A stretch of 64,000 nt of DNA, from the NCBI RefSeq assembly GCF_001660815.1, contig NZ_LYMI01000012.1:62001-126000 (forward strand). The letters are read 5' to 3'. Below are positions 9,287-60,514 of this stretch, piece after piece. Position 1 is the stretch's first letter, and every line of letters begins with the position of its first letter. A program made the translations under genes and the position numbers. The notes under the pieces are model-generated. The model had not been told where the DNA came from and did no database searches. It saw only the letters and a program-made list of their open reading frames with translations. Source of the DNA: Xanthomonas nasturtii (GTDB lineage: Bacteria; Pseudomonadota; Gammaproteobacteria; Xanthomonadales; Xanthomonadaceae).

Positions 9287-9467
9287 AGAAGCTAACACAG
9301 CACCTGCGCTCGGCGCCAAGAGCGCGTGGCCGGCGCTCGGCGCCGCATGTGTCACCTGCGCGCCGTGTTCCGAGCGCACAACCGAATTCAGATCGATAGT
9401 TCACGATGTGCTGTCAGTGACGCCAAGCCCGCACTAAAGATGCAAAGAAAGCAGCGCGGTATGCTCT

Positions 9468-9506
9468 TCCCGATTCCCGATTCCCGATTCCCGATTCCCG
9501 ATTCCC
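9468..9506. repeat. Single-armed heptamer array (CCCGATT units)
   Basis: Five consecutive copies of a 7-base unit CCCGATT fill this stretch just 3' of a glycosyltransferase gene and just before the end of the convergent gntR gene. GCTCTTCC, which precedes the right-hand arm in the two-armed elements elsewhere in the window, comes directly before it. A matching left arm (GGGAATC units) is not present upstream, although GAAAGCAGC at about 9448 resembles the element core. I read it as a half or decayed copy of the same element family. The gap from 9287 to 9510 holds nothing else I recognise. Confidence 0.75.
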
Positions 9507-33000: not shown

Positions 33001-33630
33001 ATGTCTTCTTCCTTGCCGTTACGCGACGACGGCGCTCTGCGCGGTTCACTGATGCTCGCTGTGTTCATCCTGTTCGGGCTGGGCCTGGCCTACTCGCTGA
33101 TCGCCACCGGCATCACCGGTGCGCTGTTTCCCGAGCAGGCGCACGGCTCGCTGCTGCGCGTCGATACGCGCGTGATCGGCTCGGCGCTGGTTGCCCAGCC
33201 GTTTGCCGATGCGCGCTATTTCCAGCCGCGTCCGTCGGCTGCCAAGTACGACCTCACTGCGGCGGCCGGCAGCAATCAGGCGCGTTCCAATCCTGATTTG
33301 CAGGCACGTATCGCTGCCACGCGTGCGCAAGTGGCCGCACGCGACGGCATCGCGCCGGAGACAGTGCCAGGCGAACTGCTGACCCAATCCGGCAGCGGTC
33401 TGGACCCGCACCTGAGCCCGGCCGGCGCGCAGGTGCAGATCCGCCGCGTGGCCGCCGCACGCGGCTGGCCCGAGCAGCGCGTTGCCGCACTGGTGCAGGC
33501 GGCGACCGAGGCGCCACAGTTCGGTTTGCTTGGGCTGCCGCGGGTGAATGTATTGGCCTTGAATCTGGCGTTGGATAAGGCCGGGACCGGGGACCCGGGA
33601 CAGGGGACCCGGGAACAGCAACAGCAATAG
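33001..33630 (+). CDS. kdpC: Potassium-transporting ATPase subunit C
   Basis: KdpC (209 residues) is the single-span periplasmic accessory subunit that increases the pump's apparent affinity. ATG 33001 has CCAGGAA upstream; the frame start at 32962 is not favoured. It has one N-terminal helix (LMLAVFILFGLGLAYSLIAT) and family motifs FQPRPSAAKYD, SGSGLDPHLSPAGAQ, and VNVLALNLALDKAG. The last 15 or so residues (GTGDPGQGTREQQQQ) are encoded by the left arm and core of a palindromic repeat element that overlaps the gene end, so they are probably not part of the ancestral protein. Confidence 0.95.
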   Translation: MSSSLPLRDDGALRGSLMLAVFILFGLGLAYSLIATGITGALFPEQAHGSLLRVDTRVIGSALVAQPFADARYFQPRPSAAKYDLTAAAGSNQARSNPDLQARIAATRAQVAARDGIAPETVPGELLTQSGSGLDPHLSPAGAQVQIRRVAAARGWPEQRVAALVQAATEAPQFGLLGLPRVNVLALNLALDKAGTGDPGQGTREQQQQ

Positions 33631-33690
33631 CAGCAGTAATTCTGCGGCATTGCGCGGTAGGCTCTCCCGGGTCCCGGGTCCCGGGTCCCG
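33583..33690. repeat. Palindromic heptamer-arm element overlapping the kdpC end
   Basis: The left arm at about 33583-33613 holds GGGACCG/GGGACCC-type units. The core begins GGGAACAGCAACAGC and ends GGCTCTCC. The right arm at 33666-33690 is CCCGGGT repeats (GGTCCC units). The arms can pair over 20 or more bases. The left arm encodes the KdpC tail, and the right arm lies in the leader of kdpD, 34 bp before its start, so the hairpin could affect read-through between the transport and sensor genes. Confidence 0.85.
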
Positions 33691-45353: not shown

Positions 45354-46456
45354 GCCGGGGTGCCCGGATGCGCGGTGAAGCGCAGCCCGGTCACCCGGTG
45401 TCGCAGCCACCGGCGGCCCATGTGCCGGTGCTGTACAGGCCGGTTCTGGATGGCCTGCAGGTGACCGAAAACGGAACCTATCTCGACGGCACGTTTGGGC
45501 GTGGCGGACACGCACGTGGCGTGCTGGAACATCTTGGCCCGGGAGGTCGACTGCTGGTGATGGACAAGGACCCCGAAGCGATCGCGGTGGCCGAACAGGC
45601 GTTCGGTGGCGATGCGCGCGTGTCCATCCATCGCGGCAGTTTCGCCGGCCTTGGCCAGGTGGTCGCCGCTGCGACCGTCGACGGCATTCTGCTGGATCTG
45701 GGTGTGTCTTCGCCGCAGCTGGATGTGGCCGGGCGCGGTTTCAGTTTCGGCAAGGACGGCCCGCTGGACATGCGCATGGACCCGGACAGTGGCCAGAGTG
45801 CAGCCGACTGGCTGGCGCATGCCAGCGACCGCGAGATCGCCGATGTGCTGTGGACCTATGGCGAAGAACGCCAGAGCCGCCGCATCGCGCGCGCCATCGT
45901 GGCGCGCCGCGCCGAACAGCCGCTGCTGCGCACCGCGCAGCTGGCCGACCTGATCGCCTCGGTGATGCCGCGCGGCGACAGCAAGACCCATCCGGCCACG
46001 CGCAGCTTCCAGGCGATCCGCATCTACATCAACCGCGAGCTGGACGATCTGGAAGCTGGCCTGGACGCTGCCCTGGCCGCGCTCAAGCCCGGCGGCCGGC
46101 TGGCGGTGATCAGCTTCCACTCGCTGGAAGACCGCATCGTCAAACAATTCATGGCCCGCTACGCCAAGGCCCCGCCGAGCAACCGCCGCCTGCCCGAAGC
46201 GCAGCCGTTCGTGCCGACGCTGCAGTTGGTGAGCGGCGCGATCAAGGCCGACGTCGACGAGCTGACTGTCAATCCACGTGCGCGCAGTGCGGTGTTGCGG
46301 GTGGCTGAGAGGGTGGCGGGACCGGGGACCCGGGACCTGGGACCCGGAAAGAGCGACAGCGACAGCCAGGATCCGTCGGGCACCGGCCTTGGTTCTTCCC
46401 GGGTCCCGGGCCCCGGGTCCCTGGTCCCGAGCGCACTCCAAAGGAGCGCGCCATGA
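45350..46456 (+). CDS. rsmH: 16S rRNA (cytosine-1402-N4)-methyltransferase RsmH
   Basis: SAM-dependent methyltransferase (368 residues from GTG 45350; ATG 45368 is an alternative) acting on C1402 of 16S rRNA. The family start is [15 protein letters not shown], with [49 protein letters not shown] and [19 protein letters not shown]. The natural end would be near [11 protein letters not shown]. About 46 more residues ([15 protein letters not shown] and on) are read from a palindromic repeat element at 46318-46428. The family usually has about 310-320 residues. The stop overlaps ftsL by 4 bp. Confidence 0.96.
46318..46428. repeat. Palindromic heptamer-arm element in the rsmH 3' end
   Basis: The left arm at 46318-46347 has GGGACCG/GGGACCC/GGGACCT units, the core begins CGGAAAGAGCGACAGCGAC and ends TTGGTTCTT, and the right arm at 46398-46428 carries the matching GGTCCC units. 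The arms can form a long stem. The whole element is translated in frame as the RsmH tail and ends 24 bp before ftsL begins. Confidence 0.88.
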
Positions 46457-46716
46457 GCCGCCTGCTGCTTATCGTGCTGCTGGCCTGCAGCATCGCCTCG
46501 GCGATCGGTGTGGTGTACATGCGCCACATGCATCGCAAGCTGTTCGTGCAGTTGTCCAAGCTCGAACACACGCGCGATGAATTGAATATCGAATTCGGCC
46601 GGCTGCAGCTGGAGCAGGCCACCTGGGCGGAAAGCAACCGGGTCGATCAGGTCGCGCGTGCGCGCATCGGGATGAAGTTCCCGGAGACCAACGACATCGT
46701 GGTGGTGCGCCCATGA
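46453..46716 (+). CDS. ftsL: Cell division protein FtsL
   Basis: Short bitopic protein (87 residues) of the FtsQLB complex at the division site. The helix [20 protein letters not shown] near the N terminus is followed by a periplasmic coiled coil ([20 protein letters not shown]). The C-terminal stretch [18 protein letters not shown] is typical of proteobacterial FtsL. Its last codons form the first unit of a tandem repeat that runs to the ftsI start. Confidence 0.94.
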
Positions 46717-46855
46717 CGCAGCGGCAGGACAGCCGTTTTGCACGGCGCAGCCGCCCGCAGGGTGGCGCACACATAAGTACGCCCATGACAAAACGGCAGG
46801 ACAGCCGTTTTGCACGGCGTAGCCGCCCGCAGGGTGGCGCACACGGAGGTGCGCC
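46705..46855 (+). repeat. 72-bp tandem duplication at the ftsL-ftsI junction
   Basis: A segment beginning GTGCGCCCATGACGCAGC at 46705 recurs at 46777 (GTACGCCCATGACAAAAC) with the shared block GGCAGGACAGCCGTTTTGCA and then GCCGCCCGCAGGGTGGCGCA. A third partial unit (GTGCGCCATGA) at 46849, exactly 72 bp further, supplies the ftsI ATG and its GGAGG. The first unit carries the ftsL stop. So the spacer between the two genes grew by copying the junction itself; the original genes were probably separated by one unit or less. Confidence 0.9.
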
Positions 46856-48724
46856 ATGAAAGCCGGCCGCAACCGCGCGCGCAGCAACTTCAACCTCCGT
46901 GGCCGCCTGACGCTGGTCGGCATCGCGCTGGGCCTGTGCTCGGTGACGCTGATCGGCCGCGCGGCGTTCGTGCAGCTGGTCAACCGCGATTTCTACCAGC
47001 GCCAGGGCGAGGCGCGCTACCTGCGCGAACTGCCGATCGCCACCTCGCGCGGCATGATCACCGACCGCAACGGCGAGCCGCTTGCCGTGTCCACGCCGGT
47101 GGAATCGATCTGGGTCAATCCGCAGGAACTGTTGCGCAACCCGGACCGCATCCCCGAGCTGGCCAAGGCGCTCGGCCAGCCGCTGGACGAGTTGAACGCC
47201 AAGCTGGCGCAGAAGGCCGGCAAGGAATTCATGTACCTGCAGCGCCGGATCAACCCGGACAAGGCGCATGCCATTGTCGATCTGAAGATTCCCGGCGTGT
47301 TCTCGCAGCGCGAGTTCCGGCGCTTCTATCCGCAAGGCGAGGCGATGGCCCACGTGCTGGGCTTCACCAATATCGACGACCGCGGCCAGGAAGGCCTGGA
47401 GCTGGCGTTCGACGAATGGCTGCGTGGCAAGCCCGGCTCCAAGAAAGTGGTGCGCGATGCGCGCGGCGCGATCGTGGAGAGCGTGGATCTGGTGCGTCCG
47501 GCGCAGCCGGGCAAGGACCTGACGCTGAGCATCGATCGCCGCATCCAGTTCCTGGCCTACAAGGAGCTGCGCAACGCGCTGGTCGAAAACAATGCGGCCG
47601 GCGGGTCGATGGTGGTGATGGACGTGGCCACCGGCGAAGTGCTGGCGATGGTCAACCTGCCCACCTACAACCCCAATTCGGTCACCGGCATCAATCCGTC
47701 GGCGCGCCGCAACCGCGCGGTCACCGATCTGGTCGAGCCGGGTTCGACGATGAAGCCGCTGACCGTGGCCACCGCATTGACGGCCGGCGTGGTGACCAAG
47801 GACACCATCATCGACACCAACCCCGGCTACATGGCCGTGGGCCGCTTCACCATCCGCGATGTGCCGCGCAACAACGGCGTGCTCAACGTCACCGGCGTGA
47901 TCACCCGCAGCTCCAACATCGGTGCGGCCAAGATCGCGGCCAAGGTGCCGGATCAGACGTTCTATCAGTCGATCCGCAACTTCGGTTACGGCAGCGCGCC
48001 GCATAGCGGTTTTCCCGGCGAATCGTCGGGCGTGGTGCTGCAGCCGGCGCGCTGGAGCGGCCCGTCCAAGACCACGATGTCGTACGGCTATGGCCTGTCG
48101 GTGACGCCGCTGCAGATCGCGCAGGCCTACGCCACGCTGGGCAACGGCGGCAAGCTGACCCCGCCGACCTTCGTGCGCGGCCAGCACAACGAAACCCGCC
48201 AGGTGGTCACGCCGGAAGTGGCGCGCCAGGTCATCGACATGATGGAAACCGTGGTCACCCAGGGCGGCGCCAAGGGCGCGGCGATTCTGGGCTATCACGT
48301 GGCCGGCAAGACCGGTACCGCACGCAAGAACGGCGCCAACGGCTACGAGCGCGGGCATTACAACGCGCTGTTTGCCGGCCTGGTGCCGGCCACGCGCCCG
48401 CGCTTTGCCACGGTGATCGTGATCAACGATCCGCAGGGCAAGGTGTATTACGGCGGCCTGGTGTCGGCGCCGGTGTTCCATAAGGTGATGGAAGGCGCGC
48501 TGCGGTTGATGGACGTGCCGCCGGACGACATTCAGTCGTGGCTGGCCGCACAGGCCGCCGGCAAGACCGGTCAGCCGGTGGTCAAGCCGCAGCCGGCCGA
48601 CCTGGATCCGGCACTGGTGCCGGACCCCGTGGACGAAGTGTCTGCCGGCATTCCGACCGCACTGGCACCTGCGCCGTCCGCCGCGCCGGCGCAGCCTGCA
48701 CCGGTGCAGGAGAGCCGCCAGTGA
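46856..48724 (+). CDS. ftsI: Peptidoglycan transpeptidase FtsI (PBP3)
   Basis: Septal class B penicillin-binding protein (622 residues). One N-terminal helix ([20 protein letters not shown]) anchors it. A dimerisation/non-catalytic domain follows, with [18 protein letters not shown]. The transpeptidase domain has the active Ser297 in GSTMKPL (SxxK), SSN at about 352-354 and KTGT at about 485. The C-terminal Pro/Ala-rich tail of about 60 residues is longer than in E. coli (588 residues). GGAGG upstream lies in the third unit of a tandem repeat. The stop overlaps the murE start by 4 bp. Confidence 0.97.
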
Positions 48725-50208
48725 GCCGCAGCATGGCGCTTTCGCAGCTATTGCCCGACGTGACGCTGACGCACGACGTGCAGGTGTCCGGCCTGGTGAT
48801 GGACAGCCGTGCGGCACGCCCGGGCGATGCGTTCGTGGCGATTGCAGGCTTCGGTGCGCACGGTCTGGGCTTTGTCGAACAGGCACGCGCCAACGGTGCG
48901 GTGGCGGTGTTGTTCGAGCCGCCGGCGCCCGACGGTCTGCCGGTGCCGGCCGATGCGATTGCCGTGCCTGGGTTGCGTGCGCGTCTGGGCGGCATGGCCG
49001 ATGCATTTCATGGCCGGCCGTCGCAGGCCATGCGCATGGTTGGCGTCACCGGCACCAACGGCAAGACTTCCACCGTGCAGCTGCTGGCGCAGGCGTTGAC
49101 GTTGCTCGGCACGCCCACCGGCACGCTCGGCACCCTGGGTGTCGGCCTGTACGGCACGGCCGTGCCAACCGGATTCACCACGCCGCTGGTGCTGCCCACG
49201 CATGCGTTGCTGGCGCAGTTGCGCGATGATGGCGCGCAGGCGGTGGCCATGGAAGTCAGCTCCCACGCGCTCGATCAGGGCCGCGTGGACGCGGTGCATT
49301 TCGATGTGGCGGTCTTCACCAATCTCACCCGCGACCATCTCGATTACCACGGCGACATGGCGCAGTACGGCGCCGCCAAGGCCAGGCTGTTCACCCGCGC
49401 CGGGTTGAAAGCGGCGGTGGTGAATCTGGACGATGACTTCGGCCGCACGCTGCTGGCCTCGCTCGACCCCGCGCTGCGCGCGATCGGCGTGAGTTCGCGC
49501 GCGCAGGCGAACGCCAGCGTGCGCGCACAGGCATTGCAGCTGGACCATCACGGCATCAACTTCGCGCTGAACATCGCCGGCGAAGTGCATCCGGTGCATT
49601 CGCCGTTGCTGGGCCGCTTCAACGTGGACAACCTGCTGGCCGTGGCCGGCGTGTTGTGGGCGATGGACATTGCGCCTGCGCAGATTGCGATTGTGTTGGG
49701 CCAGTTGCAGCCGATCCATGGCCGCATGAATCGGCTCGGCGGTGCGCATGGCGCTCCGCTGGTGGTTGTCGATTACGCGCATACGCCCGACGCGCTGGAA
49801 CAGGCATTGGCTAGCCTGCGTTCGCATGCGCAGGACCGCCTGATCTGCGTGTTCGGCTGCGGCGGCGAACGCGACACCGGCAAGCGCCCGCAGATGGCGG
49901 CAATTGCAGAACTCAACGCCGACGTGGCGATCGTCACCGACGACAACCCGCGTGGCGAAGATGGCGATGCGATCGTGGCCGACATCCTGCGCGGCTTCGC
50001 GCGCCCGGATGCGGCCATCGTGCAGCGCGATCGCGCCGCCGCGATCCATCAGGCCATCGGTATGGCCAGTGCGTCCGATATCGTGTTGATCGCCGGCAAG
50101 GGCCACGAGCCATACCAGGAAGTGGCCGGCGTGCGGCATGTCTTCGACGATGCCACCGTCGCTGCGCAGGCCCTGTTGCCGCGCACCGTGCTGGGGGTGC
50201 GCGCATGA
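48721..50208 (+). CDS. murE: UDP-MurNAc-tripeptide synthetase MurE (meso-DAP-adding)
   Basis: Mur ligase (495 residues from GTG 48721; ATG 48733 is an alternative) that adds meso-diaminopimelate to UDP-MurNAc-L-Ala-D-Glu in the cytoplasm. The ATP site is [11 protein letters not shown] (108-118). Other marks are [28 protein letters not shown] with the catalytic Lys region, and the meso-DAP-specific [17 protein letters not shown] closes the C-terminal domain. The start overlaps the ftsI stop (GTGA), and the stop overlaps murF by 4 bp. Confidence 0.97.
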
Positions 50209-51762
50209 AGCTCACTCCACTGTCGCTGATCGCCCATTGGGCCGGCGGCGAACTGCATGGCGAGGACGCCATGATCGATGCGGTCGGCAACGACACCCGC
50301 ACGCTCGCCAACGGCAGCCTGTATGTGGCGCTGCGCGGCGAGCGTTTCGATGGACACGACTTTGCCGCAGACGCGGTGGCACAGGGCGCCAGCGGCTTGC
50401 TGGTGGAGCGCGTTCTGCCGGCGCTGAGCGTGCCGCAGGTGCTGGTGGACAACACCGAACTGGCCTTGGCGCGCATCGCCGCCGGCATGCAGCGCGACCG
50501 CGCCACCCGCGTGGTTGCGCTGACCGGTTCCAACGGCAAGACCAGCGTCAAGGCGCTGCTGTTGTCGATCCTGACCGAAGCCGGGCGCGTGGACGGCACC
50601 ACCGTGTACGCCACGCCGGGCAACCGCAACAACGAAATCGGCCTGCCGCTGGCGGTGATCGCTGCGCCGGACGATGCGGATATTGCGATCTACGAAATGG
50701 GCGCCGGCAAGCCGGGCGATATCGCCTACCTCACCGATATCGCGCGTCCGCATGTCGCATTGGTCAACAATATCGCCCCCGCCCATCTGGAGCGCCTGGG
50801 CAGCCTGCTCGGCGTGGCGCAGACCAAGGGCGCGATCTATACCGCACTGCCGGCCGATGGCGTGGCAGTGATCAATGCCGACGATGCCTTCGGCGCCTGG
50901 TTCGAGCAGCAGCTGCATGCGCAAGCGGTGCAGGGGCGTCGCGTGTTGCGTTATGGCTTGCAGGCCAGTGCCGAGATCCGCGCACATCAGCTGCGGCTGC
51001 ATGCCGATGGCGCCCGGTTCACCCTGGTGACCCCGCAGGGCCAGGCGCAGATTGCGCTGCCATTGCCGGGCCGCCACAACGTACTCAACGCATTGGCCGC
51101 CACCGGTCTGGCGTTGGGCGCCGGCATCGCATTGCCGATCATCGCCGCAGGCCTGGCGCAAGCGCATCCGGTGGCCGGCCGGCAGGTCGCGCATCGTTTG
51201 CCTGGCGGCGCGGTGCTGATCGACGACAGTTACAACGCCAACCCCGGCTCGCTGGATGCCGCCATCGATGCATTGGCCGCCGCGCCGGGCGATGGCTGGC
51301 TGGTGCTGGGCGACATGCGCGAACTCGGCCATGAGGGCGCTGCACTGCACGCCGCTGCCGGCCGGCGCGCGCGCGCTGCCAAGCTGCAGCGTCTATACGC
51401 ATTGGGCGAGCTCAGCGCCGCCGCCGCGCAGGCGTTTGGCGAGGGCGGCCGGGTGTTTGCCACGCATGCGCAGCTGGTCGAGGCGTTGCGGGCGGATCTG
51501 GGTCAGGCCGGGAACGGGGACGGTGTAACCGGGACCGGGGACCGGGGACCGGGGACCGGGAGAAAGCAACAGCAAGTATTAGGAAATATGCAGGGAAATG
51601 GTTTGATTCACGATCAACAATCGCAGTCCGCGCCCGCTCTTGCGGGTCCCCGGTCCCCGGCCACCGGTTCCGGCGCCATCACGCTGCTGGTGAAGGGGTC
51701 GCGCGGCAGCGCCATGGATCGCATCGTCACCGCGTTGCTCGCACCGGCGGAGGATGCCTCCC

Positions 51763-51773
<11 letters not shown>
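50205..51773 (+). CDS. murF: UDP-MurNAc-tripeptide:D-Ala-D-Ala ligase MurF with a 56-residue repeat-derived insertion
   Basis: Mur ligase (522 residues) adding D-Ala-D-Ala to form the pentapeptide precursor. The ATP site is [14 protein letters not shown], with [33 protein letters not shown] and [15 protein letters not shown]. After [10 protein letters not shown] (about residue 435) comes a 56-residue low-complexity insert ([15 protein letters not shown] to [14 protein letters not shown]), read from a palindromic repeat element. The conserved final stretch [17 protein letters not shown] then resumes in frame. Typical MurF has about 450-460 residues. The start overlaps murE, and the 3' end overlaps the start of mraY by 11 bp. 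Confidence 0.96.
51510..51673. repeat. Palindromic heptamer-arm element inside murF
   Basis: The left arm at 51510-51560 has GGGGACC units (four close copies after two degraded ones). The core starts GGGAGAAAGCAACAGCAA and ends CCCGCTCTTG. The right arm at 51642-51673 has GGTCCCC units. The element lies within the coding sequence and is read in frame through both arms and core, before the last conserved strand of MurF. Confidence 0.9.
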
Positions 51774-52847
<1,074 letters not shown>

Positions 52848-52848
<1 letters not shown>

Positions 52849-54224
52849 TGAACGACATGTCCCGCCAGGCCACACGACTGGACGCCATCGGCGGCCGCTA
52901 CGACCCGTGGTTGCTCGGTGCGGCAGCCACGCTCGCCTCGCTGGGCGTGGTGATGGTGGCCTCCAGCTCGATCGAATTGTCGGATAACCCGTTCTATTAC
53001 CTGACCCGTCACCTGCTGTTCCTGGGCATCGGCATCGGGCTGGCGTTCTGGGCGATGCGCACCGAACTCAAGACCATCGAGCAATACAACCAGGTGTTGC
53101 TGCTGGCCTGCTTCGGCCTGCTGATGGTGGTGTTCGTGCCGGGGCTGGGCAGCAGCGTCAACGGCGCCAAGCGCTGGATCAACCTGGGCGTGTCGAAATT
53201 CCAGACCGTCGAAGCGGTCAAGGTGCTCTACATCGTGTGGCTGTCCAGCTATCTGGTGCGCTTCCGCGACGAGGTCAACGCAACCTGGCCGGCGATGCTC
53301 AAGCCGCTGGGTGTGGCGATCGCGCTGGTTGCGCTGTTGCTGATGCAGCCGGACTTCGGCTCGTCCACGCTGCTGCTGGCGATCACTGCCGGCATGCTGG
53401 TGCTGGGCGGGGTGAACCTGCCGCGCATGTCGATGCCGATCGTGTTCGGCCTGCCGGTGTTCGCCTTTATCGCAATCCTGGAGCCGTACCGCCTGCGTCG
53501 TATCACCTCGTTCCTGGATCCGTGGGCCGATCAGCTCGGCTCCGGTTATCAGCTGTCGAATGCGTTGATGGCGGTCGGCCGCGGCCAGTGGACCGGTGCG
53601 GGGCTGGGTGCCTCGGTGCAGAAGCTCAACTATTTGCCTGAAGCGCATACCGACTTCATCTTTTCGGTGATCGCCGAAGAGCTGGGCTTTGTCGGCGTCT
53701 GCGGTGTGATCTCGCTGTATGCGCTGCTGGTCGGCCGTGCGTTCTGGCTGGGCATGCGCTGCGTGGAAATGAAGCGTCACTTCTCCGGCTACATCGCCTT
53801 TGGCATCGGCTTGTGGATCAGCCTGCAAAGCTTCGTGTCGGTGGGTGTGAACCTGGGCATCCTGCCGACCAAGGGCCTGACCCTGCCGCTGATTTCCTCC
53901 GGTGGTTCGTCGGTGTTGATGACCTGCGTGGCGATGGGCTTGCTGCTGCGCGTGTCCTACGAAATGGATCGCGCCGAGCGGTTGCGCAGCAAGTTGTCGC
54001 CGCAGGGTGCAGGCGCGCCAGCGGCTGAGCCGGCCGAGCCGGTTGCCGAATCGGTGCAGCCGGCGTATGCGCCAGCACGCAAGCCGCAGCGCGAGACCGC
54101 TGCAGCCGCGCCGATCGCCGCCGCGCCGGTTGCTGCCGCATCCGTGGCACCGGCATCGGCGATTTTGCGCGGCACCAGCCGCATGCAGCCGCGTGTGGAA
54201 CCGACGTTCGGGAAGATCGCATGA
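52848..54224 (+). CDS. ftsW: Septal peptidoglycan polymerase FtsW
   Basis: SEDS-family membrane glycosyltransferase (458 residues, about 10 helices) that works with FtsI at the septum. Marks include [61 protein letters not shown] with its catalytic-Asp loop, and [16 protein letters not shown]. The Ala/Pro-rich cytoplasmic tail after about residue 385 is long compared with E. coli (414 residues). The start overlaps mraY by one base, and the stop overlaps murG by 4 bp. Confidence 0.96.
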
Positions 54225-55558
54225 GTGTCTATGCGAACTCTTCGCAGAAGTCCGCACAGCCGAATGCGGGAATTCAACCGGTGATGATTCTGGCTGGCGG
54301 CACCGGCGGGCACATTTTCCCGGGACTGGCCGTGGCCAAGGTATTGCGCGCGCGCGGCGTGCCGGTGACCTGGCTGGGCGCCGATGGCGCAATGGAAACC
54401 CGTCTGGTGCCGCAGCACGACATCCAGATCGACACGCTGGCCATCAGCGGCCTGCGCGGCAAAGGCCTGGTGAAGTTGCTGGGTGCACCGGTGCGCGTAA
54501 TGCGCGCGGTGCGCGCCGCCGGCTTCGTGCTGCGCAAGCGTCAGCCGCGTGCGGTAATCAGCTTCGGCGGCTTTGCGGCGGGCCCGGGCGGTCTGGCTGC
54601 GCGCCTGCTTGGCGTGCCGTTGCTGGTGCACGAACAGAACCGCGCGCCGGGCATGACCAACAAGGTGTTGTCGCGTTTCGCGCGCCGCGTGCTGACCGGT
54701 TTTCCGGGGAGCTTCGTCGGCGAAGAGGCGGTGGGCAACCCGGTGCGTGCCGACATTGCTGCGCTGCCTGCGCCGGCTGCACGTCTGGTTGGCCGCGATG
54801 GTCCGGTGCGCCTGCTGGTACTTGGCGGCAGCCAGGGCGCACGGGCATTGAATCAGGCGGTGCCGGCGGCGCTGGCTGCACTCGGTCGCCCGGATGTCGA
54901 GATTCGCCATCAGTGCGGCGAAAAGCTGCGCGCCGAAGCCGAGGCCTCATATGCACAGGCCAGCGTCAATGCCAGTGTCGAACCCTTTATCGCCGACATG
55001 GCCGCAGCCTACGCCTGGGCCGATCTGGTCGTGTGCCGCGCCGGTGCCTCCACACTGGCCGAACTGTGCGCCGCCGGCATCGGCAGCGTGCTGGTGCCGT
55101 TTGCCGCTGCGGTGGACGACCATCAAACCCGCAATGCCGAATACCTGGTCGGTGCCGATGCCGCCGTGCTGCTCAAGCAGGACGACAGCCTGGCGGTGCG
55201 TTTGCAGCAGGTCTTGCAGACCCTGCTCAACGACCCACCCCGTCGCCTGTCGATGGCCAACGCCGCGCGCACCCTGGCCAAGCCGGATGCTGCCGAGCGG
55301 ATTGCCGACATTGTGTTGCACGAAGCCGGGACCGGGGACCGGGGACCGGGGACCCGTGGCAAGCACGATCAACGGCATGGAAGTACCGAGACCCGCGATC
55401 CGCAATGCGGGGGGCGTGAAGAACAGAATCAACAGCAGACAGGTATGCACGCAGATAATCATCACGGGCAGGCGCAACGCGCTGCCGCCGCTTCGCTCTT
55501 CCCGGGTTCTGGGTCCCCGGTCCCCGGTCCCGCTACCTCCACAGGAGGTGCCGCGTGA
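54221..55558 (+). CDS. murG: UDP-GlcNAc transferase MurG with a repeat-derived C-terminal tail
   Basis: GT28 enzyme (445 residues) at the cytoplasmic face that adds GlcNAc to lipid I to make lipid II. Motifs are the N-terminal [58 protein letters not shown] and [15 protein letters not shown] with [12 protein letters not shown]. The family ends near [13 protein letters not shown]; here about 76 more residues follow ([13 protein letters not shown] on), encoded by a palindromic element at 55328-55531. E. coli MurG has 355 residues. The stop overlaps murC by 4 bp. Confidence 0.96.
55328..55531. repeat. Palindromic heptamer-arm element in the murG 3' end
   Basis: The left arm at 55328-55355 has GGGGACC units. 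The right arm at 55501-55531 carries GGTCCCC units and is preceded by CGCTCTT. The core is longer than usual, about 145 bp, and includes AGAATCAACAGCAGACAG. The whole element is translated as the MurG tail. It ends only 4 bp before the hairpin that covers the murC ribosome-binding site. Confidence 0.87.
55535..55549 (+). promoter_or_regulatory. Hairpin burying the murC ribosome-binding site
   Basis: ACCTCC-ACA-GGAGGT is a perfect 6-bp stem with a 3-base loop. Its 3' strand is the murC Shine-Dalgarno sequence, 5 bases before GTG 55555. When folded, the site is blocked; ribosomes finishing murG, whose stop lies at 55556-55558, would open it. This suggests murC translation depends on murG translation. 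Confidence 0.6.
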
Positions 55559-56988
55559 TCCGCCGTCTGCAGGACAGCGGCGATCTGGTGCGCGCATTTC
55601 CGCGCGTGCATTTCGTCGGCATCGGCGGCACCGGCATGAGCGGTATAGCCGAAGTGATGCTGACGCTGGGCTATGAAGTCTCCGGCTCCGATAACGCGGA
55701 TAACGCGGCGACGCGGCGGCTGGCCAAGCTGGGGGCGCGCGTGATGCGCGGCCACTCGGCTGCCAACGTGCTCGGCACCGATTGTGTGGTGGTGTCCAGC
55801 GCCATCCGCGAAGACAACCCCGAGCTGATGGAAGCGCGTAGCCAGCGCATCCCGATCATGCCGCGTGCAGCGATGCTGGCCGAGTTGATGCGCTTCCGCC
55901 GCGGTATCGCTGTGGCCGGCACGCACGGCAAGACCACCACCACCAGCCTGGCGGCGGCCGTGCTGAGCGAAGGCGGGCTGGATCCCACCTTCGTCATCGG
56001 TGGCCAGCTGCTGGCGGCCGGCGCCAACGCAAAGCTCGGCGGCGGCCAATGGCTGGTCGCCGAAGCCGATGAGAGCGACGGCAGCTTCCTGCGCCTGAAT
56101 CCGTTGATGGCGGTGATCACCAACATCGATTCGGATCACCTGGAAAACTACGGCAACGACTTTGCCCGCGTGCAGGCGGCGTTTGCCGAATTCCTGCAGC
56201 GCCTGCCGTTCTACGGCCTGGCGTTGCTATGCATCGACGACCCGGAAGTGGCGGCACTGGCCGGCAAGACGCCGCGCCATGTGATGAGCTACGGCATGAG
56301 CGAAAACGCCGACGTGCGCGCCGAAGATGTGGTGCAGGACGGCCCGCGCATGCGCTTCACGCTGCGCCTGCCCGAAGGCACCACCACGCCGGTGACGCTC
56401 GCACTGCCGGGTCGTCACAACGTGCTCAACGCCCTGGCCGCTGCCGCAATCGGCTGGCAGCTGGGCGTGGCACCGGAAACCATTGCGCGCGCGCTGGAGA
56501 ACTTCGCCGGCATCGGCCGTCGCTTCAACGATCTGGGCGAAGTCACCACCAGCACCGGCGCACGTGTGCGCGTGGTCGACGATTACGGCCATCACCCGCG
56601 CGAGCTGGAAGCCGTGTTCGCTGCAGCGCGTGGCGGCTGGCCGGACAAGCGCCTGGTCGTCGCCTTCCAGCCGCACCGCTACAGCCGCACCCGTGATCAG
56701 TTCGACGCCTTCGCCGCCGTGCTCAGCACCGTCGACGCGCTGGTGTTGAGCGAGGTCTACCCGGCCGGCGAAGCGCCGATTCCCGGTGCCGACTCGCGCG
56801 CACTGGCACGCGCCATCCGTGCGCGTGGCCGCAGCGAGCCGGTGGTCGTCGGTCAGATTGCCGGCCTGGCTGAAGTGTTGCCCGACGTGCTGCAGGACGG
56901 CGACCTGCTGTTGATGATGGGCGCCGGCGATATCGGCTATGTGGCTCAGCACATCATCAACAATGGATTTGTTGAGGGTGAGGCATGA
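55555..56988 (+). CDS. murC: UDP-MurNAc:L-alanine ligase MurC
   Basis: First Mur ligase (477 residues from GTG 55555), which adds L-Ala to UDP-MurNAc. Motifs are [18 protein letters not shown] at the N terminus, [19 protein letters not shown] (ATP site), [57 protein letters not shown] and [11 protein letters not shown]. The start overlaps murG by 4 bp, with a full AGGAGGTG site; the stop overlaps ddl by 4 bp. Confidence 0.97.
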
Positions 56989-58040
56989 GCGCGCCCTCTA
57001 TCGGGACCCGGGACCCGGGACCCGGGACTGGAGAACAGCAGGTCGGGCAGTCCGTCGTCTCTGCCGTTCCGGGTCCCCGGTCCCCGATCCCCGATCCCGG
57101 CATTCAACGCACCACCGATCCGGCAACCTTTGGCCGCGTTGCGGTGCTGCTCGGTGGCACCTCATCCGAGCGCGAAGTCTCGTTGAACTCCGGCAGCAAC
57201 GTGCTCGAAGCGCTGCGCGCACGCGGTGTCGATGCACAGCCGGTCGATGGCATTCCGGCGTTGGCCAAGGGCTTGGTCGCAAAACAATTCGATCGCGTCT
57301 TCAACGTGCTGCACGGCCATAACGGCGGCGGCGAAGACGGCATCGTGCAGGGCCTGATGGAAGCGTTCGGCGTGCCGTACACCGGCTCGGACGTGCTCGG
57401 CTCGGCGTTGAGCATGGACAAGATCCGCACCAAGCAGGTGTGGCTGTCGCTGGGCCTGAGTACGCCGCGCTACGCGCGTCTGGCCGCCGGCGCCAGCGCC
57501 GACGACATCCATGCCGCTGCCAAGCAGATTGGCTTGCCGGTCATCGTCAAGCCGGCCAATGAAGGCTCCAGCGTCGGCGTCAGCCGCGTGTTCGACCAGG
57601 CACAGCTGGAAGAAGCGGTGACCCTGGCTGCCCGCTACGACGGTGCGCTGTTGATGGAGCAATTGATCGAAGGCGATGAACTGACCGTTGCCGTGCTCGG
57701 TGACACCGCATTGCCGTCGATCCGCATCGTGCCCAAGGGCCAGTGGTACGACTACAACGCCAAGTACGTGGCAGACGACACCCAATACCTATGCCCGGGT
57801 CTGGAAGGCGATGCCGAAGCGCAGATCCGCCAGCTCGCGCTGGACGCCTTCCGCGCTGCCGGCTGCCGCGGCTGGGGCCGCGTGGACGTGATGCGCGATG
57901 GCAGCAGCGGCCAGCTGTATCTGCTTGAAGTGAACACCGCTCCCGGCATGACCAGCCACTCGCTGGTGCCCAAGGCTGCACGCCAGCTCGGCATCGAGTT
58001 CGAAGAACTGGTCTGGCAAGTACTGGAGCAGACGCTGTGA
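56985..58040 (+). CDS. ddlB: D-alanine:D-alanine ligase with a repeat-derived N-terminal extension
   Basis: ATP-grasp ligase (351 residues) making D-Ala-D-Ala for MurF. Residues 7 to about 39 ([15 protein letters not shown] to [11 protein letters not shown]) come from a palindromic repeat element. The family proper begins around [19 protein letters not shown]. Other marks are [53 protein letters not shown] and [18 protein letters not shown]. coli DdlB has 306 residues. A start at a GTG further in could avoid the extension, but ATG 56985 overlaps the murC stop, as the operon pattern would predict. Confidence 0.95.
57003..57100. repeat. Palindromic heptamer-arm element in the ddlB 5' end
   Basis: The left arm at 57003-57028 has three perfect GGGACCC units. 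The core begins GGAGAACAGCAGGTC and ends TGCCGTTCC. The right arm at 57069-57100 mixes GGTCCCC and GATCCCC units. It is translated as residues 7-39 of the D-Ala-D-Ala ligase. Confidence 0.88.
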
Positions 58041-58043
58041 CGC

Positions 58044-58141
58044 AGGGACAGAGGACCGGGGACCAGGGGCCCGGGAACAACAAAAGCGGTTGCGCCTCAG
58101 CTCTGGCTTTTCCGGGTCCCCGTTCCCCGGTCCCCGGTCCC
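58044..58141. repeat. Palindromic heptamer-arm element between ddlB and ftsQ
   Basis: This element occupies almost the whole 121-bp gap between the ddlB stop and the ftsQ start. The left arm runs 58044-58076 (degraded GGGGACC units), the core begins GGGAACAACAAAAGCGG and ends CTGGCTTTTCC, and the right arm at 58112-58141 has GGTCCCC units. The hairpin is the only large gap-filler between cotranscribed genes here and would lie in the leader of ftsQ. Confidence 0.87.
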
Positions 58142-58161
58142 GCCGTGTGCGGAACGCGCGC

Positions 58162-58989
58162 GTGAACGCCACCCTGCGCATCCTGGCCTGGTTGCTGGCG
58201 CTGGCGTTGGTCGCGCTGCCGGTGGTGGCTGTGCTCAGTGGCTGGGTCGGTGCCGAGCGTTGGCCGCTGGCGAAGCTGCGCGTGTCCGGCGACTTCAAGC
58301 GGGTGCCGGCCGAAGAGTTGCGTGCGGTGGTGTTGCCGTATGCGCGTGAAGGGTTCTTTGCGGTGAAATTGCAGCAGGCGCAAGACGCCATCGCGCGTTT
58401 GCCGTGGGTGGAAAGTGCGCAGGTGCGCAAGCGTTGGCCGGACGTACTGGAAGTGCGCGTGACCGAGCACAAGCCGTTCGCACGCTGGGGCACCGACCGC
58501 ATGCTGTCCGAGCAGGGCCGCCTGTTTCGCACCCCGCCGTTGTTGAAGGATTTCAAGTTGCCACAGCTCGGTGGGCCGGACAGCAAAACCCAGGATGTGG
58601 TGGCGCTCTACAACGAATCGCGCGCGCTGTTCGCACCGACCGGGCTGGACGTGGAGCGTCTTGAAATGGACGCGCGCGGCAGCTGGTCGTTGGGCTTGAG
58701 CAACGGCGTGCAGATCGTGATCGGCCGCGACGATGCCCGTGCACGTTTGCAGCGCTTCGCGCGCGTGCTGCCGCAGCTGGCCGACCCGCAACGCCCGATC
58801 GCGCGTGCCGACCTGCGCTATACCAACGGATTTACCGTGGAGCGGAAGGGATTGGAGAGTGGGGATTCGGGATTGGAAAAAGCGCAGCCCCGGCATCGCG
58901 CAGCACCTTCCGCACCTCCCGTCGCCCTGGCATTTCCGCGCTTTCCCAATCCCATATCCCGAATCTCGAATCCCGGCTTTAAGACATGA
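58162..58989 (+). CDS. ftsQ: Cell division protein FtsQ with a repeat-derived tail
   Basis: Bitopic division protein (275 residues from GTG 58162, with GGAA about 8 bases upstream). I prefer this to a TTG at 58090, which lies inside a repeat element. It has one N-terminal helix (LAWLLALALVALPVVAVLSG), a POTRA domain (LAKLRVSGDFKRVPAEEL) and a beta domain with WVESAQVRKRWPDVLEVRVTEHKPFARW and ARADLRYTNGFTVERKG. The last 46 or so residues are encoded by a GGGATTC-type palindromic element. The stop overlaps ftsA by 4 bp. Confidence 0.93.
   Translation: MNATLRILAWLLALALVALPVVAVLSGWVGAERWPLAKLRVSGDFKRVPAEELRAVVLPYAREGFFAVKLQQAQDAIARLPWVESAQVRKRWPDVLEVRVTEHKPFARWGTDRMLSEQGRLFRTPPLLKDFKLPQLGGPDSKTQDVVALYNESRALFAPTGLDVERLEMDARGSWSLGLSNGVQIVIGRDDARARLQRFARVLPQLADPQRPIARADLRYTNGFTVERKGLESGDSGLEKAQPRHRAAPSAPPVALAFPRFPNPISRISNPGFKT
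58848..58974. repeat. Palindromic element (GGGATTC-type arms) in the ftsQ 3' end
   Basis: The left arm at 58848-58876 has GGGATTGG/GGGATTCG units, the core begins GGAAAAAGCGCAGCC and ends TTCCGCGCTTT, and the right arm at 58945-58974 carries AATCCC units (one TATCCC). The arm sequence differs from the GGGACC type used in neighbouring copies, but left and right still match each other. It is read in frame as the FtsQ tail. Confidence 0.86.
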
Positions 58990-60221
58990 ATCGCAAAGGC
59001 GACAAATCCCTCATCGTTGGACTGGACATCGGCACCTCCAAGGTCGTTGCCCTGGTCGGCGAGTATTCGCCCGGCAACCCGATCGAAGTGATTGGCATCG
59101 GTTCGCATGAATCGCGCGGTCTCAAGCGCGGCGTAGTGGTGGACATCGAATCCACCGTGCAGTCGATCCAGCGTGCGGTGGAAGAAGCCGAGCTGATGGC
59201 CGGCTGCGAAATTCGCTCGGTGTACGCATCGATTTCCGGCAACCACGTGCAGTGCAAGAACTCGCCCGGCATCGTGCCGATCCGCGATGGCGAAGTGACC
59301 TGGAGCGATCTGGAGCGCGTGCTCGATGCCGCCAAGGCCGTGGCCATTCCCGCCGACCAGCGCATCCTGCATGCGATTCCGCGCGAGTACGTGCTGGACG
59401 ATTCGCAGGAAGGCATCCGCAACCCGGTCGGCATGACCGGCGTGCGCCTGGAGGTGCATGCCCACCTGGTGGTGTGCGCGCAGTCGGCCGCGGCCAACAT
59501 CACCAAGTGCGTGCAGAAGTGCGGCCTGCAGGTCGACGATCTGGTGCTGTCCTCGCTGGCGTCCTCGGTGGCCGTGCTGACCGCCGACGAGCGCGAACTG
59601 GGCGTGGTGCTGGTGGATATCGGCGCCGGTACCACCGACCTTGCGGTGTATGTGCAGGGCGCCATCTGCCACACCGCCTCGCTGCCGATCGCCGGCGACC
59701 ATGTCACCAACGACATTGCGCACATGCTGCGCACGCCGACCCCGGAAGCCGAGCAAATCAAGGTGCGCTATGCCTGCGCGCTGGCGCAGCTGGCCACCGC
59801 CGAAGAAAGCATCCAGGTGCCGTCGGTGGGCGACCGCCCGCCGCGTCGCATGCCGCGGCACGCGCTTGCACAGGCAGTGCAGGGCCGTTACGAGGAAATT
59901 TTCGAGATGGTGCAGGCCGAACTGCGCCGCTCCGGTTTCGAAGAAATGGTGCGTGCCGGCATGGTGCTCACCGGTGGCGCCTCGAAGATGGAAGGCGTGG
60001 TGGAACTGGCCGAAGAAATGCTGCAGATGCCGGTGCGTGTGGGCATCCCCCAGCACGTCACCGGCCTGGGCGAAGTGGTCGGCAACCCGGTACACGCCTC
60101 CGGCGTTGGCCTGTTGTTGATGGGCAGCCAGATCGAACACCCGCGCCGTCCGTCGATCCCGACCGGACGCGCGGGCAGCTTGTTCAAGAAATTGAAGAAT
60201 TGGTATCGCGGCGAATTTTGA
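58986..60221 (+). CDS. ftsA: Cell division protein FtsA
   Basis: Actin-family membrane tether of FtsZ (411 residues). Motifs are LIVGLDIGTSKVVALVGE, GVVVDIESTVQSIQRAV, SISGNHVQCKNSPGIVPI, VVLVDIGAGTTDLAVYV, GAICHTASLPIAGDHVTND and LTGGASKMEGVVELAEE. It ends with a basic, amphipathic helix (SLFKKLKNWYRGEF), the membrane-targeting sequence. It overlaps the ftsQ stop by 4 bp. The 293-bp gap to ftsZ is occupied mainly by a palindromic repeat element. Confidence 0.97.
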   Translation: MNRKGDKSLIVGLDIGTSKVVALVGEYSPGNPIEVIGIGSHESRGLKRGVVVDIESTVQSIQRAVEEAELMAGCEIRSVYASISGNHVQCKNSPGIVPIRDGEVTWSDLERVLDAAKAVAIPADQRILHAIPREYVLDDSQEGIRNPVGMTGVRLEVHAHLVVCAQSAAANITKCVQKCGLQVDDLVLSSLASSVAVLTADERELGVVLVDIGAGTTDLAVYVQGAICHTASLPIAGDHVTNDIAHMLRTPTPEAEQIKVRYACALAQLATAEESIQVPSVGDRPPRRMPRHALAQAVQGRYEEIFEMVQAELRRSGFEEMVRAGMVLTGGASKMEGVVELAEEMLQMPVRVGIPQHVTGLGEVVGNPVHASGVGLLLMGSQIEHPRRPSIPTGRAGSLFKKLKNWYRGEF

Positions 60222-60227
60222 TGGGCC

Positions 60228-60495
60228 GGGATTCGGGATTCGGGGATTCGAGATTGGAAAGAGCGAAAGAAAAGCAGGGCGGCAGCGAAGATAAGTAGAG
60301 AGCGGCGAGCAGGTAGGCGATAAAATTTTTGGCAGGCATTGCGTCGAGGATCAGGTGTGGTGAGTCGTTGAGCGCAATAGCGCATCGATGACCGCGCAAC
60401 CGAGGCCCGACTTTCAAACAACAACACTCGCCGTGATGCGGAGTAGGGCAGGGACCAGCGCTTTTGTGAATCCCCAATCTCCACTCCCCAATCCC
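60228..60495. repeat. Long palindromic element (GGGATTC-type arms) between ftsA and ftsZ
   Basis: The left arm at 60228-60257 has GGGATTC units, the core begins GGAAAGAGCGAAAGAAAAGC and ends near CAGCGCTTTTG, and the right arm at 60468-60495 has AATCCCC units. The core is about 210 bp, the longest of the set. The right arm ends 19 bp before the ftsZ ATG and just before its AGAGGA site. It could affect the ratio of FtsA to FtsZ or act as an RNA-processing site. Confidence 0.85.
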
Positions 60496-60514
60496 GGCTC
60501 AAGAGGACACTGAC

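Follow-up and report, generated by a model that had tools for sequence, protein, structure and literature searches.

Class-switched palindromic cassettes at fixed junctions of the Xanthomonas cell-division operon and their possible exchange by flank-guided recombination

How do cassettes of short repeats, predicted to form hairpins, behave when they lie within essential cell-division genes? The question is raised by a 64,000-nucleotide stretch of the plant-associated bacterium Xanthomonas nasturtii (G000:C12:62001-126000 of a 4.87-Mb genome; hereafter the window), whose relatives keep the cassette sites, often hold other versions there, and tend to have one repeat type dominating per genome. 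Eight two-armed elements occur in the window, seven within 14 kb of the division and cell-wall operon and one at the end of kdpC, together with a one-armed copy, all at the places where a sequence-only reading had located them. In each, two mutually inverted arrays of about four heptamers starting with GGGA enclose a core, which in the window spans about 30-215 bases. The units had been given as GGGACCN or GGGATTC; the former holds for six elements, and the remaining two, at ftsQ and ftsA-ftsZ, carry GGGATTN. The proposed common core edges hold loosely: GGxAA..AGC(AACAGC)n and GCTCTTTCC are examples of recurring inner edges, and the middles differ.

Heptamer arrays and inverted pairs are already published for Xanthomonas. 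Rehm et al. (2015; PMC4692102) reported GGGAATC and GGGANTN heptamer repeats with 70 (Xcc) and 75 (Xac) convergent inverted pairs, 89-93% of repeats being intergenic, with variation in length and sequence and loci linked to genomic stability. What is new here is the occupancy of shared sites by three unit classes, the swaps between sister genomes, the coherence of class within a genome, and the kept reading frame; no report of class switching or class coherence of these elements was found in literature searched mainly by title and abstract, as far as the sources seen extend. The reading we tentatively favour, with a little less than even confidence, is that the palindromic cassettes stay at fixed gene-junction sites and pass between Xanthomonas lineages through flank-guided recombination ending near their borders. 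If right, short fixed-site palindromes would be among the faster-exchanging parts of the genome, more mobile than the essential genes that host them and correlated genome-wide, and would offer a testable system for palindrome-driven recombination and the concerted evolution of dispersed bacterial elements. The ends of rsmH, murG, ftsQ and ddlB, as well as heptamer-array typing markers, might then not follow species history.

Three unit classes at shared junctions

The operon was found through FtsW in all 35 genomes of the genus (handles G); 34 stretches were extracted, and all but one of the 245 site cells (244) could be read, rsmH of G017 being the exception. Named matches to the FtsW of the window point to Xanthomonas, X. 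cucurbitae being the nearest at 94% in a search from which records very close to the window may have been absent. The same junctions hold three unit classes across these genomes: GGGAAT (AAT), GGGATT (ATT) and GGGACC (ACC). No readable genome is without a counted unit at rsmH, murG, ddlB-ftsQ or ftsA-ftsZ, and four have none at ftsQ. With presence defined as at least two counted units on at least one arm (stray single units elsewhere uncounted; G018 has one unit per arm at murF), arrays are present at the ddlB site in 10/35 genomes and at the murF site in 11/35. Most genomes therefore lack arrays at these two sites, which were excluded from the coherence, flank and tree tests for that reason. 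The earlier expectation of a dispersed family with presence/absence variation is thus borne out; copies confined to these loci, without such variation, would have spoken against a mobile family, and this is not what was found, since the family is dispersed and its presence varies.

The two arms of an element agree in class in 143 of the 148 elements with at least two units per arm (AAT 72, ATT 53, ACC 18) and disagree in five; mixed-class arrays exist, for example at ddlB-ftsQ in G001, G003 and G022. Core similarity was highest for the same site and class (median z 5.2-39.9 wherever at least 10 pairs were compared), ranged from 0.4 to 4.1 for the same site and another class, with ftsA-ftsZ AAT/ATT at 11.9, and was 1.5 for another site and the same class. 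Because core similarity follows site, the occupants are, as judged from their cores, site-specific alleles and not copies moved between sites. The classes at one site may go back to a distant common ancestor.

On a tree built from 15,046 operon columns, elements and ftsW excluded, class requires 12-14 changes per site, compared with a shuffled mean of 11.6 at rsmH, the sole site shuffled; class thus tracks phylogeny poorly. Cells without a clear class were dropped from the tree and coherence tests (rsmH 5, murG 1, ddlB-ftsQ 2, ftsQ 4, ftsA-ftsZ 2). Within genomes, class agreement across the five operon sites was 0.795 (297 site pairs, uncorrected for phylogeny) versus 0.420 when permuted (maximum 0.562 of 5000), and 19 of the 32 genomes with at least four typed sites were uniform in class, versus 1.6 expected and a maximum of 6. 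The AAT fraction of the operon also correlates with that of the whole genome (Spearman 0.74, n = 30). As the genome-wide AAT fractions span 0.11-0.94 across these 30 genomes, the class state of a genome is a bias and not a clean switch.

The reading frame passes the element site in 34/34 readable genomes at rsmH (G017 not being readable) and in 35/35 each at murF, murG and ftsQ, counts that include genomes without arrays at murF or ftsQ. In the window, the end of rsmH overlaps the following gene by ATGA, and that of murG by GTGA. Outside Xanthomonas, the RsmH tail measures 0-8 amino acids in all 11 loci compared and the MurG tail 2-13 amino acids in the eight loci with a listed MurG match; four Stenotrophomonas loci have no elements, an RsmH tail of 5 and a MurG tail of 2 amino acids, and a MurF without insert. 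Since the Stenotrophomonas loci have none, the elements at the rsmH, murG and murF sites look like gains. Stop-free heptamers as a design feature were rejected, 73% of random heptamers at 66% GC being stop-free in all six frames.

Replacement between close relatives and its borders

The sister genomes G006 and G007 share 98.2% identity across the operon stretch, and their identity profile in 100-bp bins dips at the elements of rsmH (79%), murG (47%) and ftsQ (69%; here G006 has the right array only), other bins lying at 91-100%. Across 400 kb matched between the two (46 blocks, mean identity 96.2%), 11 two-armed elements occur in G006, nine ATT/ATT and the rest mixed with ATT, and 14 in G007, ten AAT/AAT, two ATT/ATT and two mixed. 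Seven of the 11 elements of G006 are replaced in G007 by another core with AAT units, between flanks that are 97.3-100% identical over 385-400 bp on each side. Over eight replaced sites, the adjacent 50-bp flanks show 10 mismatches in 800 bp, five of them at murG, a sum that omits ftsQ and site 100444 (merged with its neighbour) and that block trimming lowers near the edge. Outside this replacement count, three of 11 listed single arrays differ in class between the two genomes by reading, and most do not. A second pair, G005 and G016, more divergent outside the operon, has AAT/AAT in 10/10 pairs of G016 and ATT/ATT in 7/10 of G005, and eight of nine chained G005 elements lie within swap blocks; the chains cover 110-400 kb in G006 and 101-384 kb in G005. 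Such differences between occupants of shared sites suggest a rather precise exchange process.

Among genome pairs with at least 95% operon identity (per site, 3-8 pairs of different and 6-16 of the same class), element identity is 92-96% for the same class versus 68-80% for different classes, and most flank bins differ little. Conversely, 43 species pairs with less than 92% operon identity have elements that are 95.5-98.4% identical (ftsQ 19, ftsA-ftsZ 12, rsmH 5, murG 4, ddlB-ftsQ 3). For example, the ftsQ element of G007 is 97.8% identical to those of G024 and G004, the operon stretches being 90.4 and 91.0% identical. In the 43 pairs, flank identity at 10-25 bp is 95.2/95.8% (left/right) versus 91.2/91.3% in different-class controls, at 25-50 bp 92.5/95.7% versus 89.9/94.0%, and further out 0-3 points above controls. 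Any co-transferred flank must thus be short, because identity drops to near-control levels within about 10-25 bp. Class change through transfer of the whole operon was not supported, the flanking genes following sister relations.

Exchange and its alternatives

Alleles specific to their site, borders that are sharp, and occupants nearly identical in distant species fit a flank-guided, cassette-limited exchange. Homologous recombination, directed by the flanks, would swap occupants between lineages of Xanthomonas, and its tracts would stop at or near the array borders. The palindrome would probably start the event, through hairpin extrusion, a break by a hairpin nuclease and short-patch repair from incoming DNA, a role suggested by general knowledge of such nucleases; the heterologous block would halt branch migration and so limit the tract, and recombination inside arrays would explain those of mixed class. 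Once transcribed, each cassette is predicted to fold into a strong hairpin where genes meet. The elements may also influence RNA stability, DNA topology or expression ratios, as the sequence-only reading had suggested. The class bias of a genome would lie outside the exchange step, and would need either bias in the pool of donors or a trans-acting partner specific to the class.

Several points weigh against this proposal. No donor, break or enzyme was observed, and the flank found is shorter than ordinary homologous import would lead one to expect. Some co-carried flank is nevertheless present: in the nearest 50 bp, identity drops by 3-4.5 points from same-class to different-class pairs near some elements (rsmH right 95.9 vs 91.4, ddlB-ftsQ right 97.1 vs 93.5, ftsQ left 95.8 vs 92.5). 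Three of the 11 elements in the G006/G007 comparison have the same class and core, one site is occupied by 883 bases of other sequence, and swap blocks are not confined to elements, which are held by 6/13 of them in G006/G007 and 10/50 in G005/G016 (7/13 and 40/50 being without). Each species is represented by one genome, and the 43 pairs are not independent. Part of the pattern is vertical inheritance, since distances between same-class elements correlate with those between species (Mantel 0.27-0.59). Classes were called by simple counts of AAT, ATT and ACC units, each arm separately, and one-armed cells, many of them at ftsQ, were typed by the arm present. Within AAT and within ATT, own arms pair no better than same-class arms of other species. 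Finally, cores of different class at one site exceed the cross-site level in 11 of 13 comparisons, which fits old alleles too.

That last observation leads to an old trans-species polymorphism, in which two or three ancient alleles per site survive because populations are large and recombine, recombination evens out the flanks as far as the heterologous block, and sister species come to fix different alleles by chance. Same-class alleles common to several species and partly following species distance would be explained, as would the clear homology of the AAT and ATT cores at ftsA-ftsZ, most other between-class comparisons being weakly above the cross-site level; the agreement of class across sites within a genome, however, is not predicted by this process itself, and elements that are 97-98% identical between operons of about 90% identity look recent. 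We consider it doubtful. A bolder account goes further: each genome would be in an AAT, ATT or ACC state set by a class-specific trans-acting factor, and after a change of factor, cassettes of the new class would step by step take over the junction sites genome-wide, the in-frame tails of essential division proteins included, bringing hardly any flanking DNA with them. This we hold to be unlikely.

Two further explanations are improbable in our judgement. A non-autonomous mobile element, resembling repetitive extragenic palindromic (REP) sequences or miniature inverted-repeat transposable elements (MITEs), could be inserted by a class-specific transposase at preferred junctions, class switches reflecting turnover of the enzyme. 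The elements have the terminal inverted repeats that define MITEs, the family is dispersed and patchy (the pattern GGGANYN-GGGANYN-GGGA matches in 99/149 family genomes and 44/54 genera, at 0 to about 900 per genome, the reversed-pattern control giving hardly any matches apart from a few genomes, G066 among them), the ddlB and murF sites are empty or filled, three-unit ACC arrays occur in only 15/35 genomes, and some loci of other genera carry operon elements (L049, L055, L057, L058 and L068). Copy-paste movement between sites is nonetheless disfavoured by the site-specific cores, and the one core tested, the AAT core at murG of G007, has no copy elsewhere in ATT genomes. Silent archive copies of the phase-variation type were rejected on the same search of 12 genomes: none of the six with ATT at murG matched (G005, G006, G008, G011, G017, G028), and among those with AAT at murG the core was at its site in G001, G007, G016, G018 and G027 and absent from G012, with one extra weak match of about 25 bases in G001. 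A genome-encoded transposase associated with REP sequences (RAYT), which the sequence-only reading had proposed to look for, is also not general, four of 35 element-carrying genomes having no Y1_Tnp match at E <= 0.001 (G010, ATT; G012, AAT; G029, ACC/ATT; G033, AAT/ATT), Y1_Tnp being the sole enzyme candidate searched. Alternatively, selection could maintain hairpins in the messenger RNA for their tuning effect on the division operon, and drift and slippage would change class as a neutral side effect; this would account for the position of the sites at gene junctions, the kept frame and the strength of the folds: the six elements folded as RNA (E1, E2, E3, E5, E6 and E7 in Table 1) have z from -7.85 to -2.35, five at -4.2 or lower. 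Own arms pair better than cross-class arms at 5/5 sites compared, and in the ACC class own arms beat those of other species at murG (5/5) and murF (5/6), though at ddlB in 2/4 only. Against such tuning stand the genome-wide dispersal of the elements, the absence of arrays at many murF and ddlB sites and at ftsQ in four genomes, and the missing own-arm covariation within AAT or ATT; drift, moreover, does not replace a core and both arms together.

Elements of the window and related systems

Table 1. Heptamer elements of the window, with positions counted from its first nucleotide.
Element	Class	Location	Coordinates	Strand	RNA fold z
E1	ACC	End of kdpC	33581..33690 (left array 33581-33614, right 33665-33690)	.	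-7.85
E2	ACC	In-frame C-terminal tail of rsmH, directly 5' of the rsmH/ftsL overlap	46317..46430 (arms 46317-46352 / 46394-46429)	.	-7.58
E3	ACC	In frame within murF, ahead of the conserved LVKGSRGS end	51529..51672	.	-5.34
E4	ACC	In-frame C-terminal tail of murG, directly 5' of the murG/murC overlap	55327..55533 (arms 55327-55356 / 55503-55532)	.	
E5	ACC	In frame close to the ddlB start	57002..57099	.	-2.35
E6	ACC	ddlB-ftsQ junction, left array degenerate	58045..58142	.	-5.11
E7	ATT	In-frame C-terminal tail of ftsQ	58848..58976	.	-4.22
E8	ATT	ftsA-ftsZ intergenic	60227..60497 (arrays 60227-60255, 60469-60495)	.	
Lone array	GGGAATC	Without visible second arm	9467..9506	-	

The two-armed elements of Table 1 are well separated from chance: no two-armed pair occurred in 3 x 400 kb (1.2 Mb) of Markov-shuffled own sequence, in which single arrays numbered 27 with at least two units and one with at least three. 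The pattern GGGAYYN-GGGAYYN-GGGA has 97+78 matches in the own genome versus 0 for its reverse, so the family is dispersed. The concentration in the operon that had been noticed at the outset also stands, seven pairs in 14.6 kb (47.9 per 100 kb) comparing with nine in 400 kb of contigs C1, C3 and C4 (2.25 per 100 kb, about 20-fold less) and with a density of 2.0 per 100 kb over the remaining window; a Poisson probability calculated by hand is about 6e-8, to be read with caution as the operon was picked after being noticed.

The closest known system is that of Rehm et al. (2015; PMC4692102), whose repeats, in the part of the article seen, are likewise G-rich heptamers, preferably of four units, dispersed, and associated with kdpC among other genes. 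GGGACC units, site-specific cores, class switching, class coherence, the division operon and in-frame tails of essential proteins do not figure in that part of the text. By the definition used there (at least two units including GGGAATC, perfect or heterogeneous GGGANTN), the two ATT elements of the window fit GGGANTN and contain no GGGAATC, and the six GGGACC elements do not fit; GGGAAT units occupy the same sites in other species, and the present inverted pairs are, as there, spread over the genome. Touzain et al. (2010; PMC2884548) described dimorphic and homeologous small variable segments of bacterial genomes, which resemble the cassettes as alternative short segments at one locus with conserved flanks, intergenic or in frame, with palindromic units among them; in the portion of their article consulted, no family-wide class correlated across the loci of a genome is described. 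Rickettsia palindromic elements, of about 150 bp and fused in frame with genes according to a review of MITEs (PMC10969869), share the in-frame palindromic insertion in coding genes found here at rsmH, murF, murG and ftsQ; the section of the review available mentions neither heptamer arrays nor class swapping, the comparison being one of described features.

The proposed REP/RAYT-like identity, in contrast, did not find support. Both groups are abundant short palindromes of Xanthomonas genomes, but the REP sequences of Xanthomonas RAYTs have a cognate transposase, a GT(A/G)G head and a GC palindrome (Nunvar 2010; PMC2817692), and the examples printed in the part of that paper seen are of the GTAGGAGCGC type, dissimilar to the present elements by reading rather than by alignment. 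The own genome has two Y1_Tnp matches about 2.5 kb apart (G000:C55 12799-15670; L001, L002), and reading of L001, the one locus inspected, showed no heptamer array.

Beyond the genus, two-armed pairs among 80 loci were found in four of Xanthomonas and six others (L049, L055, L057, L058, L068, and L110 with other units), L053 and L064 having a single array each. At Rhodanobacter and Dyella loci, similar elements lie directly upstream of ftsW (L055 9879-9982, L057 9861-9960, L068 9888-9971), a junction without one in the window; all three pairs of L055 are AAT. No target-site duplication was evident by eye in an informal comparison of empty and filled ddlB and murF sites. The ddlB sites of G026 (L147), G029 (L126) and G025 (L133) hold collapsed, coreless remnants of 28-41 bases, as if the palindrome had been deleted. 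Between ftsL and ftsI, the window has a 72-base tandem duplication (46708-46844), where G006 and G007 differ by a 75-base gap. The ftsW gene (window 52848-54221; L114-L147) forms two groups in the genus, with protein identities to the window of 92-97% and 82-84%, which do not track neighbouring genes (distance-matrix correlation 0.19-0.48). The ddlB genes of G013 (L141) and G026 (L147) are 74-75% identical to that of the window, versus 86-91% for murC and ftsQ, which suggests gene replacement.

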